Shown here piece after piece: positions 34,293-38,114 of a stretch of 64,000 nucleotides of DNA. Position numbers and translations under genes: made by a program. Under the pieces are notes generated by a model. The model was not told the origin of the DNA. It did no database searches and worked only from the letters and a program-made list of their open reading frames with translations. Every line of letters begins with the position of its first letter. Within the stretch, counting starts at the first letter, position 1. This DNA is from Photobacterium proteolyticum (GTDB lineage: Bacteria > Pseudomonadota > Gammaproteobacteria > Enterobacterales > Vibrionaceae): contig NZ_MJIL01000087.1 of assembly GCF_001939735.1 (NCBI RefSeq), positions 171,891 through 235,890 on the forward strand. Direction: 5' to 3'.

Positions 34293-34967
34293 TTATCGTG
34301 TTCCTGTCGGCTCTTCTTGCACAAGCAAGAGCGGTTGTTCAATGGGTGCAGCAACGCCGGCAGCCAGATAAGGCACCAGTCGTTCAATCAAGTCTTCAGT
34401 CGTTACCGTGCGGGAGAAGTCACTTTCGGCAATTTCGCACAAGGCGGTTGTCGAGGCCATGGTGAAAACAGAAGCTCCCAGGGTGAAATGCAATCGCCAG
34501 AATAAGGTTTCGGGATCCAAAGAGGGGTTGGCGCGGCATACTGCCGTGGTAAACAATTGCAGCACGTCTTCATAGCGGGTAAGAATGAACCAGCGTAGGT
34601 GTCCCTGAACATCGGTATACCCCCGGCCGATAAGAGACATGAAGATTGTTGCGCCTTTCTGACGGTACTCGTTCAGGTTGATCAACGGTGTTTTCACGCA
34701 ACGAAAGACATCTTCCATTGAAAAATCATCACGTGTCAGCAGCACTTCCAGCTCGGCTTTCAGGGCAGGCATAAACTCTTCCAGATAACGGCTCAGCACC
34801 GCTCTGACCAAGGTTTTCTTATCACCGTAATGATAATTTACCGAAGCCAGGTTAACACCTGCCTTGCTGGTTATGGTACGCAATGACGTTTCCTTGAAGC
34901 CATGTTCAGCAAACAACAGCTCTGCCGCATCAAGGATACGGCTCTTGGTTTCTCCTTTTCCCGCCAT
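34293..34967 (-). CDS. psrA: TetR family regulator of fatty-acid metabolism (PsrA type)
   Basis: A 224-residue TetR regulator. N-terminal HTH at about 8-55 (TKSRILDAAELLFAEHGFKETSLRTITSKAGVNLASVNYHYGDK) and a larger ligand-binding domain. The position upstream of fadE and sequence style fit PsrA, which senses long-chain fatty acids or acyl-CoA. Two starts are possible, ATG 34973 and ATG 34967; AGGTG is too close to the first, so the second is preferred. A 12-bp dyad AAAC-N4-GTTT just upstream matches the PsrA consensus and suggests autoregulation of psrA-fadE. Confidence 0.85.
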   Translation of the reverse strand: MAGKGETKSRILDAAELLFAEHGFKETSLRTITSKAGVNLASVNYHYGDKKTLVRAVLSRYLEEFMPALKAELEVLLTRDDFSMEDVFRCVKTPLINLNEYRQKGATIFMSLIGRGYTDVQGHLRWFILTRYEDVLQLFTTAVCRANPSLDPETLFWRLHFTLGASVFTMASTTALCEIAESDFSRTVTTEDLIERLVPYLAAGVAAPIEQPLLLVQEEPTGTR

Positions 34968-34984
34968 TTTCATTCACCTGTATT

Positions 34985-34996: not shown

Positions 34997-35249
34997 AAAC
35001 TTTACATCTCATTAATATTTTTAACAAGACACAAATAAATTCGAATGAGTCATTTGGGGCTCAAACCCCACGTGAATCGGCCAGTCTGTGACGCTGATCG
35101 CCAATTTTTGTAGAATGAGAAAAGAGAAGTACCACACCCATCCAGGTTAAATACTTGTTAAATCAACAACTAATAGACTACCAGAATGTTGAAGGCATAA
35201 TTACTTGGGCAGCAGAGAAAAAATAATGAGAAAAAATGCCATTTGACGG

Positions 35250-35276
35250 GAACAAAAAAACAGATCGTGGGTCATA
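35250..35276 (+). promoter_or_regulatory. Sigma-E-type promoter of sRNA A
   Basis: GGAAC at -35 (GAAC 35250-35253), 18 bases, then TCATA (35272-35276). Transcription is predicted six bases further on, at G35283, the first base of the RybB-like seed. Confidence 0.7.
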
Positions 35277-35282
35277 TATTAT

Positions 35283-35346
35283 GCCACTGCTTTTTCTTAG
35301 AAGACTTTCTTCAAAGCCCGTCCCCTAATGGAGATGGGCTTTCTTT
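35283..35346 (+). ncRNA. sRNA A: RybB/MicV-like sigma-E-dependent small RNA
   Basis: Predicted 64-nt RNA. Its 5' end GCCACTGCTTTTTCTTAG is nearly the 5' seed of E. coli RybB (GCCACTGCTTTTCTTTG), the part that pairs with outer-membrane protein mRNAs. A terminator stem AAAGCCCGTC / GATGGGCTTT (35313-35342) with CTTT follows. The predicted start lies exactly where RybB starts relative to its sigma-E promoter. In V. cholerae, MicV carries the same seed; whether this is its orthologue or a locally derived relative is not clear. Confidence 0.78.
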
Positions 35347-35598
35347 ATTCTGGCAGCCGATCACCATAACCGAACTGAACGTTCAGAGGCTACAACCTAA
35401 TTTCCCTCCCCCCCATCACTGCTAGAAATGAGCACAACACAGCTCCGCCCCACCTTGTGACCTAGAAACCTTATATATGGAAACCTTGGTAGCTAGTAAC
35501 ATCGCTCCTTCCCACAGTTTCTCAGCCTGTCACTCCGCGATGTAAAAAACTTCAAATCAGACACTTATAAAAAAATGATAGATTTTTCGAAATTTAAG

Positions 35599-35625
35599 GA
35601 ACCAACGCAAAAATGATCAGTCATA
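35599..35625 (+). promoter_or_regulatory. Sigma-E-type promoter of sRNA B
   Basis: GGAAC (GAAC 35599-35602), 18 bases, TCATA (35621-35625). The spacing is identical to that of the other three sRNA genes. Predicted start G35632, in GACATTGAGATTAA. Confidence 0.7.
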
Positions 35626-35631
35626 TATAGT

Positions 35632-35772
35632 GACATTGAGATTAAAGACACCTTATTTTGTTAGCTGGCCGCCAAGCAAGCCTTCTTTCTTTAATCTAAA
35701 AATGCCACTGCTGCTAAACTCCTAATTGTGTAAATAGAGCCTTTGCCCGCTGACTTTCAGCGGGCTTTTTTT
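35632..35772 (+). ncRNA. vrrA: sRNA B: VrrA-like small RNA, copy 1
   Basis: Predicted 141-nt RNA, agreeing with the roughly 140 nt known for V. cholerae VrrA. It starts GACATTGAGATTAA, has the internal block GCCACTGCTGCTAAACTCC (35704-35722) and ends in a terminator GCCCGCTGA / TCAGCGGGC (35745-35765) with seven T. The block contains ACTCCT, complementary to Shine-Dalgarno sequences. The middle part differs from the other copies. A MITE begins 14 bases after the T-run. Confidence 0.75.
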
Positions 35773-35785
35773 ATACATCGTGATA

Positions 35786-36094
35786 TATACCCAAGCTACC
35801 TCAAGATGCTCGTTTCAGCGAGAATTACTTGGGTTGTGGCCGTGCCGCGCAGGCTAGGCATCGATTAGAAAATCTAGTGGCTCTAAATTAATAATCGGTA
35901 ACAACGCATAGAAGCCCCTATCTACTTAAAAGAACTGGAACTCGCCCTTTGGGAGTGAGCCAGTTGGTTCGGCATTCCGACGCCCATTTCTGTGTCAAAT
36001 AACGTTGAAAGGGAATACATTCCTACCGTCATTTTCCTTGAACCGGCTCGCTGGTCTCACTCTGAATCCTGCATCTTGAGGTAGCTTGGGTATA
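35786..36094. mobile_element. MITE-like element, copy 1 (309 bp)
   Basis: Bounded by 24-bp perfect terminal inverted repeats starting TATACCCAAGCTACCTCAAG. No coding capacity. The second copy at 36743-37007 is the reverse complement with several short indels. The ends read TA-TACCC...GGGTA-TA, compatible with a TA target duplication as in elements moved by IS630/Tc1-type transposases; this last point is inference. Confidence 0.85.
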
Positions 36095-36212
36095 AAACTG
36101 GCATCGTTGCAGTTATGCTCCCGGCAAACACTGTACTGCTCTTAACTACTACTATTCCCGGTTGCTATTGAGTTTTAGCTCTATTAAAAAACAAAAAAAT
36201 TAATCTTTTTTT

Positions 36213-36239
36213 GAACCATTCCTTTTTATGCCAGTCATA
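36213..36239 (+). promoter_or_regulatory. Sigma-E-type promoter of sRNA C
   Basis: TGAACC (GAAC 36213-36216), 18 bases, TCATA (36235-36239) preceded by CAG as in copies B and D. Predicted start G36246, in GACATTCACATTAA. Confidence 0.7.
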
Positions 36240-36245
36240 ACTAAT

Positions 36246-36363
36246 GACATTCACATTAATGGAGAGTTAACCAACACTTTTCATTAATCAACAATGCCAC
36301 TGCTGCTAAACTCCTAATTGTGTTAAGGATTTAACCCGCTGAATTTTCAGCGGGCTTTTTTTT
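36246..36363 (+). ncRNA. vrrA: sRNA C: VrrA-like small RNA, copy 2
   Basis: Predicted 118-nt RNA. It starts GACATTCACATTAATGG, similar to copy B. The 28-base block beginning TGCCACTGCTGCTAAACTCC (36295-36322) is identical to that in copy B. Terminator CCCGCTGA / TCAGCGGG (36335-36354), C, then eight T. The spacer between the 5' end and the block is shorter than in B and unrelated in sequence. Confidence 0.75.
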
Positions 36364-36564
36364 GCTTATTGAGCAAGCTTGAAATACGACCATCGTTCTC
36401 ACTTTTTACCCACTTCTTGCAATTAAGACAGAAGCTAGCCTGATATGTATTAATAATCACGCTAGCAATTACATCTGAGCAAATTCAATTCTGACCATAA
36501 ATCACACTAACTGTAAGTAAATAAAGCGCTTATAGGAAGCCGATACTTTTTTTTGATTTTTTTT

Positions 36565-36591
36565 GAACCTTACTGAATTGGCACAGTCATA
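36565..36591 (+). promoter_or_regulatory. Sigma-E-type promoter of sRNA D
   Basis: TGAACC (GAAC 36565-36568), 18 bases, TCATA (36587-36591), again with CAG before it. Predicted start about 36598. Confidence 0.68.
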
Positions 36592-36597
36592 TTAAGT

Positions 36598-36729
36598 AAG
36601 ATTAATGTTATCGGCTCTGTATATGTAAGGTCATATCTCAAGCTGGTAATTATTGATTGCCACTGCTGCTTAAACTCCTATTCATATAATGGAATGTTGC
36701 GCTGAGCCTTTTCTCAGCGCTTTTTTTTT
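36598..36729 (+). ncRNA. vrrA: sRNA D: VrrA-like small RNA, copy 3
   Basis: Predicted 132-nt RNA starting near AAGATTAATG. The block GCCACTGCTGCTTAAACTCC (36659-36678) has one extra T compared with copies B and C and is the most divergent. Terminator GCGCTGAG / CTCAGCGC (36699-36720) with nine T differs in sequence from B and C. The second MITE begins 14 bases after its T-run. Confidence 0.73.
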
Positions 36730-36742
36730 GCGTAATTTCTAG

Positions 36743-37007
36743 TATACCCAAGCCACCTCAAGATGCAGGATTCAGAGTGAGACCAGCGAGCCGGTTCAAG
36801 GAAAGTAACGGTAGGAATGGTAGTCCCTTTCAACGTTATTTGACACAGAAATGGGCACGCTGGCTCACTCCCAATGGGCGAGTTTACTTGGCTTCTATGC
36901 GTTGTTACCGATTATTAATTTAGAGCTACTAGATTTTCAAATCGGTGCCTAGCCTACAAGCCAAGTAATTCTCGCTGAAACGAGCATCTTGAGGTAGCTT
37001 GGGTATA
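36743..37007. mobile_element. MITE-like element, copy 2 (265 bp, inverted)
   Basis: Same family as copy 1 in opposite orientation: its reverse complement follows copy 1 with small deletions (for example about 20 bases near each of two internal sites). Terminal inverted repeats are 24 bp with one mismatch (GCCACC for GCTACC at the left end). It separates the sRNA array from the epimerase gene. Confidence 0.85.
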
Positions 37008-37030: not shown

Positions 37031-37879
37031 TCAGTCGTACTCGGGACTCATCGCCATCAGATCGGGATGTGTCACCTCTAGCCCTAATACAGCGAATGTC
37101 TGCTCTGCGTTGATCTCCTTTCCCTGCACTACAACCGAAGGTGCAAAATCAGGCAAAGGCAAACCTGCCAGCATCGCCATTTTGGTATAATAGGCTTGCC
37201 GGGAAGGATGACTCGGCGCAGCCAGATGCAACACTGGCTGAGTTGGCCAGCACGCAATTGCGCAGCTGATTGCCTGGATACAATCATCAAGATGCACCAG
37301 ATTCACAGGCTCAGCACCATTAGCCAACGCTGTGCGGCCTGACAGGAATTTCACCGGATGACGATCCGGACCAATCAAGCCCGCAAGCCGTAGGACAACA
37401 ACCTCTTCCCCCCACTGCTCATGAAGCCACTGTTCAAGTAACCGGTGCGCCTTGCCGCTCGCAGTGTCCGGCACAGGTGCCGTAGATTCCGTAATCTCTC
37501 CTGCTACGCTGCCATAAACGGAGGTTGTACTGATGAATACTATCCGCTTGCAGCCATATGCCTGAGCGGCAGCCGACAAGCTTTTTATCTTCGCTACAAA
37601 TGCAGCATCTGCGTCTTCGCCCCGACCGGGCGGTACATTGATAACTAATACGTCTGTATTGAAAAAGTCAGCATATTGACCCTGTCTTCCATCACAGCTT
37701 TCAGCCTGTGGGTTTTCGATCGGAAGCGATAATTCAACACCATGAATGCCTGCTGCTGCGAGCTGGCTAATCCGGTTCCGATCCCGGCTGCTACCATATG
37801 TCTCATAGCCAATTTGGACCAAATGCTTTGCCAGAGGCAATCCGAGCCACCCGCAGCCGCATATACTCACCCTCATCAT
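37031..37879 (-). CDS. NAD-dependent epimerase/dehydratase family protein, YeeZ type
   Basis: A 282-residue extended SDR-like protein related to E. coli YeeZ. Rossmann motif GCGWLGLP near the N-terminus, RIVFISTTSVYGSVAGEITESTAP with the YG of the active site region, ILRLAGLIGPDRHPVKF-like VLRLAGLIGPDRHPVKFLSGR, NLVHLDDCIQAI. Function of the family is unknown; a nucleotide sugar substrate is often presumed without proof. Start chosen at tandem ATG 37879 with GAGGG upstream. It is convergent with the sRNA array and lies just beyond MITE copy 2. Confidence 0.85.
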   Translation of the reverse strand: MMRVSICGCGWLGLPLAKHLVQIGYETYGSSRDRNRISQLAAAGIHGVELSLPIENPQAESCDGRQGQYADFFNTDVLVINVPPGRGEDADAAFVAKIKSLSAAAQAYGCKRIVFISTTSVYGSVAGEITESTAPVPDTASGKAHRLLEQWLHEQWGEEVVVLRLAGLIGPDRHPVKFLSGRTALANGAEPVNLVHLDDCIQAISCAIACWPTQPVLHLAAPSHPSRQAYYTKMAMLAGLPLPDFAPSVVVQGKEINAEQTFAVLGLEVTHPDLMAMSPEYD

Positions 37880-38114
37880 CGTTCCCTCTTCAAATGCAAC
37901 AAAAGACATAAAATAACTACGGTTATTTATTTCGATCTGTAAATTAATTCCTTACAAATGAAAATAAACAACACAAATCCCCGCATAATTCGCGCATAAC
38001 AGGCATTTTGCTAAAAAAATTTTTCAGAACTGAAAGGAAAAATTCGATCCCTGTCAAACTATAATAAAAAGTAAAAGCTATATTCATCGATTTGCTAGGA
38101 GCATATCCATAAAA

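Follow-up and report, generated by a model that had tools for sequence, protein, structure and literature searches.

What two inverted copies of a short repeat are doing among the small-RNA (sRNA) genes of Photobacterium proteolyticum, and whether they shape those genes, is the question raised by this locus. Within the window (the whole stretch of DNA that was analysed, 64,000 nucleotides), the copies flank two of four predicted sRNA genes, and the initial annotation saw in them MITE-like elements able to flip the enclosed segment. We consider it very likely, for the account as a whole, that the elements arrived by two insertions, later exchanged a tract, and have little effect on their neighbours.

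The two elements and the sRNA array

The features of the locus are as follows.
34293..34973, minus strand: PsrA, a TetR-family repressor, left flank of the array (NCBIfam NF053516, 361.7 bits, cut-off 300)
35283..35349 (ends approximate), plus strand: sRNA A, RybB/MicV-like, with a sigma-E-type promoter at 35249-35276
35626..35772 (start set at the base after the -10 match), plus strand: sRNA B, VrrA-like, with a sigma-E-type promoter at 35598-35625
35786..36094, plus strand: MITE copy 1, 309 bp, of the 309-312 bp class, from repeat search and alignment
36240..36363 (start predicted), plus strand: sRNA C, VrrA-like paralogue, with a sigma-E-type promoter at 36212-36239
36592..36729 (start predicted), plus strand: sRNA D, VrrA-like paralogue, with a sigma-E-type promoter at 36564-36591
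36743..37007, minus strand: MITE copy 2, 265 bp, of the 265-267 bp class, inverted relative to copy 1
37031..37909, minus strand: NAD-dependent epimerase-like protein, right flank, convergent with the array (PF01370, 35.5 bits, cut-off 20.9)

The coordinates and lengths given in the initial annotation for a 309-bp and a 265-bp element, inverted, differing by indels and bounded by 24-bp terminal repeats, were confirmed; the 24-mer is perfect at either end of copy 1 and has one mismatch at one end of copy 2. The copies lie 648 bp apart (36095-36742) in opposite orientations and share inverted arm pairs of 77, 66, 59, 37 and 25 bp (identity 95-97%), the longest exact inverted matches being 50, 47, 37 and 33 bp. 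Each begins, as the annotation had also stated, 14 bases past the final T in the terminator of an sRNA (35772 for sRNA B and 35786 for copy 1; 36729 for sRNA D and 36743 for copy 2). Three internal indels, also seen in other copies, separate the length classes of the two elements, and because these classes differ, copy 2 is unlikely to be a simply diverged copy 1. By chance, 0.27 copy pairs within 960 bp are expected genome-wide, or 2.2 if copies are restricted to an assumed 12% of the genome, therefore the closeness of the two elements needs no special cause. The largest open reading frame within either element encodes 48 aa. As RNA, copy 2 forms a near full-length hairpin (z -11.4) and copy 1 also folds well (z -6.0), each better than every shuffle made. 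Outward sigma-70-type promoters were dismissed as a feature of the elements (five seen, 4.5 expected in shuffles).

The array reads as one RybB/MicV-like and three VrrA-like sRNAs at the vrrA locus. For sRNA A, the RybB model RF00110 ranked first by bits among 10 matches in the stretch (17.4 bits, E 0.087), which is below its gathering score (cut-off 40), and no Rfam match in the window reached a gathering score. No match of B-D to the Rfam VrrA model RF01456 appeared at E ≤ 1, the model was absent from the 20 matches of B at E ≤ 10, and it found nothing in the P. proteolyticum genome; it reached its gathering score nowhere, with sub-threshold matches at the array locus in G002, G010, G025 and G006. 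In these four genomes (L071-L073 and L079, from G002, G025, G010 and G006, respectively), the best sub-threshold Rfam VrrA match there is an extra VrrA-like sRNA downstream of the array genes. The naming of B, C and D as VrrA-like draws on psrA synteny, a sigma-E-type promoter, an internal seed and a conserved 3' region. The promoter pattern [TG]GAAC-N(17-18)-GTCNNA, which matches the sigma-E consensus and was composed after some of these promoters had been seen, precedes every one of the 65 seed-bearing sRNAs from 21 genomes (base shuffles predict 0.21). Terminators of B, C and D were detected by scan, which missed the terminator-like hairpin of sRNA A that is visible by eye.

In a VrrA-type alignment of 41 of 60 copies (A1; 19 removed by hand to limit redundancy), an 8-pair 5' stem showed both-sided changes at seven pairs and 89.3% of cells paired; none of 500 shuffles, which ignore relatedness, scored as high, and slid controls gave 33-49%. 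RNAalifold recovered from the VrrA-type alignment the 5' stem (-1.3 kcal/mol) and not the terminator. Among the candidates scored (40 per genome, out of roughly 770-2,300 first-look candidates), a VrrA-type model found 1-4 copies in each of 17 genomes of the genus, and in other genera of the family one copy in 13 of 64 genomes and none in 51. This search is insensitive outside the genus, because vrrA is known in several Vibrio species, as stated in PMC2628432. By pattern, the tandem row of VrrA-like genes in P. obscurum (L236) reaches five. The VrrA-like expansion is likely specific to Photobacterium, and no description of tandem vrrA was found in the titles or abstract starts of the partly covered VrrA/MicV literature.

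An IS630-type MITE family and its targets

In the P. proteolyticum genome (6.48 Mb, 101 contigs), at least 43 places match the 309-bp element at E ≤ 1e-22 (a lower bound, with 40 of 86 first-look candidates scored); the other 56 of the 99 matches are short terminal-repeat cross-hits. The terminal-repeat pattern, allowing up to two mismatches, matched 94 times and its reversed control not once, an abundance far above chance. Paired ends define lengths of 309-312, 297, 280-286, 265-267 and 358 bp, short forms span 49-164 bp, and single ends are many. All except one of 29 copies lie outside gene-like frames, as judged by open frames. The MITE nature proposed at first has thus been borne out: the elements are short, present in many copies (the 43 or more places and 94 terminal-repeat matches), bounded by terminal inverted repeats and free of a transposase ORF. 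The annotation had named a lack of further genomic copies as part of the counter-evidence, which did not materialise because other copies exist. Five hairpins of 49-73 bp in this genome (L086:506-563, L095:994-1042, L109:963-1035, L110:992-1047 and L111:970-1027) comprise barely more than two terminal repeats, which suggests further reduction of the family. Related copies occur in seven of 72,556 plasmid-collection records, from Vibrio and Photobacterium, and one relative (G028) has 318 terminal-repeat matches with at most one mismatch. Terminal-repeat matches 2.8 kb apart in G028 turned out to belong to adjacent MITEs. No description of the family was found in titles or abstract starts of the MITE and repeat literature on Vibrio and Photobacterium, which was partly covered.

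To characterise the target site, we looked for the flanks of 18 P. proteolyticum copies in the sister genome (G022, taken as P. alginatilyticum P03D4), where 14 aligned and four did not. Four of the 14 sites are cleanly empty, with a single TA where P. proteolyticum has TA-element-TA; one is empty with TA plus a 3-nt difference, three have local deletions or changes and are uninformative, one keeps a partial remnant, and five are occupied in both species. The four clean empty sites show that the MITE duplicates its target TA on insertion, and the mobile unit is probably best written TACCC...GGGTA inside the duplicated TA. Such TA targeting suggests the IS630/Tc1-mariner group.

A parent insertion sequence (IS) was rejected for the P. 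proteolyticum genome, which has no DDE_3 transposase match, and in whose fetched loci no terminal-repeat pair stands at IS length. Elsewhere in the genus, 25 of 52 genomes have a DDE_3 match; G028 has 35, including 355-aa IS630 transposase frames, and its transposase matches the IS630-family model NF033545 (235.7 bits, cut-off 100). With 318 terminal-repeat and 35 DDE_3 matches together, G028 is possibly a genome with an active partner of the MITE. Both ends are of the TACCC type in four of 30 IS loci from the genus search, most others having different or unrecognisable ends, and of nine IS loci taken from 295 genomes drawn from the order, six had both ends; all 10 IS with both ends, from these 39 loci, have TA on each side. 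Of 22 MITE end bases, the best IS right ends share 18; the left ends are less alike. Both MITE ends resemble the IS right end, whereas most IS left ends belong to the TACCCGTGATCATTGAAGATGC type. Likeness is confined to the ends (25-31 bp, 80-88%), reaching the BLAST limit in two of the 10 IS tested, with no IS-derived internal MITE sequence among them; none of the 39 loci has an IS with an exact MITE end match. The MITE therefore shares the TA target and its ends with IS630-family IS of the TACCC...GATGC type in Photobacterium and other genera of the order, but differs from them in having no transposase gene and no internal likeness. Of the two things the annotation had proposed to look for, further copies came to light, and for the parent IS only IS630-family relatives with similar ends, in other genomes. 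Taken together, the ends, like those of TA-inserting IS630-family elements, and the copy number mark the repeats as what appears to be an ordinary IS630-type MITE family.

The equal 14-base offsets in the window might reflect a preference for intrinsic terminators as targets and not chance. A terminator-like site lies within 40 bp of, or overlaps, eight of 29 copies, compared to 31 of 403 control non-ORF TA sites (Fisher one-sided p 0.002), and six of 27 without the window pair (p 0.02), although the terminator definition was home-made, the control TA sites came from the same loci and the test was post hoc. The enrichment of MITE copies near terminators is suggestive. One of the eight near copies (L081:4325-4610, contig C99) apparently sits in the loop of a terminator-like hairpin, between flanks AAGCCCGTGG and CCACGGGCTT, as targeting would allow. 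Selection against insertions elsewhere, however, yields an equal enrichment, and we regard terminator targeting as unlikely.

Age of the array, inversion and exchange between the copies

We compared the array with those of relatives. P. alginatilyticum has A-B-C-D in an arrangement collinear with that of the window; of the MITEs it retains only TATACCCA at site 1 and TACACCCAAGCTACCT at site 2. In P. chitinilyticum, B, C and D stand in the same order with no MITE end within the 8-kb locus. A MITE end (up to six mismatches allowed) is absent from 19 of 20 relatives' loci, the 20th being the P. alginatilyticum remnant, and the MITE-free loci carry arrays of two to five sRNAs. Because relatives have the array without MITEs, the array is older than the MITEs. 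Eighteen Photobacterium loci, two of them from P. jeanii, were scanned for end-like matches, which turned up in three species: as the remnant in P. alginatilyticum, in P. lipolyticum and, outside the array, in P. lutimaris. One P. lipolyticum match (L210) is part of a mini-palindrome of about 50 bp with ends TATACCCAAAC...GTTTGGGTAT between the first two VrrA-like genes (1401 and 1668), which seems to be a related element that landed independently in the same array.

These comparisons bear on the suggestion that MITE-mediated duplication built the array, in which recombination between MITE copies would have duplicated a vrrA gene to give B-C-D. MITEs do stand between gene copies in P. proteolyticum, and the P. 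lipolyticum mini-palindrome, with its similar ends, also lies between vrrA-like copies; against this, the same gene order exists free of MITEs in P. chitinilyticum, 19 of 20 relatives' loci lack the ends, and the inverted placement and unlike length classes of copies 1 and 2 disfavour tandem duplication. We reject this origin as extremely improbable. Instead, we favour two independent insertions of the abundant non-autonomous IS630-type MITE just downstream of the terminators of B and D, which would have taken opposite orientations by chance. Both insertions would postdate the split from P. chitinilyticum and, because truncated end remnants are kept at both sites, predate the split from P. alginatilyticum, which would later have reduced both MITEs to these ends; the remnant at site 1, being no more than TATACCCA, counts against this timing.

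Inverted repeats this close could also act on the genes between them. Inversion of the C-D block is mechanically possible and found no support. Within 36095-36742, both C and D come with a sigma-E-type promoter and a terminator of their own, so an inversion would move complete units, and no phase switch is expected. The phase-like variation put forward in the initial annotation consequently fared poorly. The insertions most likely have little effect on expression of C and D, as far as these predicted units tell. In none of 25 loci, of which 18 have at least two copies, are VrrA-type genes found on both strands; as only the window has a MITE pair, this uniformity says little on MITE-driven flipping. 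Recombination of the MITEs at appreciable frequency, flipping 36095-36742 and producing orientation variants, could draw on the 50- and 47-bp exact inverted matches 648 bp apart, on the probable exchange described below, and on the inversion of Correia elements in gonococci mentioned in PMC10969869. Yet the orientation is the same in P. alginatilyticum, where the MITEs are remnants, and in MITE-free P. chitinilyticum, and the self-contained C and D units predict no switch. We therefore hold frequent flipping to be improbable, and two insertions with little effect to be the better account.

The copies do appear to have exchanged sequence, as seen in the following tracts.
36033..36082, plus strand: 50-bp exact inverted tract of copy 1 with the private shared variant AACCGGCTCGC, a probable gene-conversion tract
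36755..36804, minus strand: counterpart 50-bp tract of copy 2, an exact match to the copy 1 tract

By alignment, copy 1 belongs with the 309-312 bp class, copy 2 with shorter copies. In their inner arms, however, both carry AACCG-GCTCGC, whereas in the other 24 aligned copies AACTGAGCTCGC, or a variant that lacks the deletion, stands in its place. The compound CCGG variant is found in two of 26 motif matches in P. proteolyticum, exactly the two neighbours, and in none of 16 in P. alginatilyticum, where the ancestral state is unreadable because both orthologous copies are lost; in G028 and G029 the pattern search found the motif in no form at all. Five of 84 long-short class pairs share an exclusive allele, and only copies 1 and 2 share two columns, one of them an indel; the four among the other 83 pairs share one exclusive base, either by homoplasy or by other exchange elsewhere. 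Gene conversion is the simplest reading, because the appearance of one new variant in both copies would not follow from a reciprocal crossover alone. The copies thus probably carry a gene-conversion footprint, left by homologous recombination of a short tract after both insertions, as judged from one compound variant spotted after the fact. This variant shows contact between the copies, not inversion. A further step, that the pair is an active cassette whose arms are kept alike by conversion and whose C-D segment is occasionally inverted in part of the population, seems to us very improbable; if true, two envelope-stress sRNAs would there have other neighbours and a different read-through context.

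Elsewhere in the P. proteolyticum genome, L012 (C96, 283 bp) and L101 (C94, 266 bp) share two exclusive columns and group in the tree. Exchange between distant copies is one possibility for this pair, in which class and substitutions disagree without neighbourhood. Due to the L012/L101 pair and the weak orientation test, our certainty in the overall account is slightly reduced.

Meaning and comparison with known systems

As a family, the MITE is a useful marker of Photobacterium genome dynamics, as its 318 terminal-repeat matches in G028 illustrate, and the window pair offers a natural case of probable gene conversion between inverted repeats of 265-309 bp less than 1 kb apart. The host vrrA locus is the more biological point, with up to five tandem VrrA-like genes and a RybB/MicV-like gene, each with a sigma-E-type promoter, and the tandem array may be a better story than the MITEs.

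Among known repeats, Correia elements and RUP duplicate TA and are linked to IS630. Described as small intergenic palindromic elements in PMC10969869, the Correia elements (CREE) of Neisseria and RUP of Streptococcus resemble the Photobacterium MITE in these respects but differ in sequence and host, a likeness drawn from description. We assembled an ERIC core from ERIC primers, and its score against the MITE (15) was no better than that of shuffles (mean 15.07; 107 of 200 as high), thus ERIC membership was rejected. ERIC are listed as MITEs of Enterobacteriaceae and Vibrionaceae in the same source (PMC10969869); unlike them, the Photobacterium MITE lacks the ERIC core sequence.

For the array, the closest setting is that of VrrA and MicV in Vibrio cholerae, in which vc1741 is psrA. 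There, vrrA is sigma-E dependent and lies between vc1741 and vc1743 (PMC2628432), and a seed-pairing domain is common to VrrA and MicV (PMC7602753). The PsrA on the left and the epimerase-like neighbour on the right of the Photobacterium array resemble this location, whereas the Photobacterium locus differs in holding one RybB/MicV-like and three VrrA-like genes in tandem.
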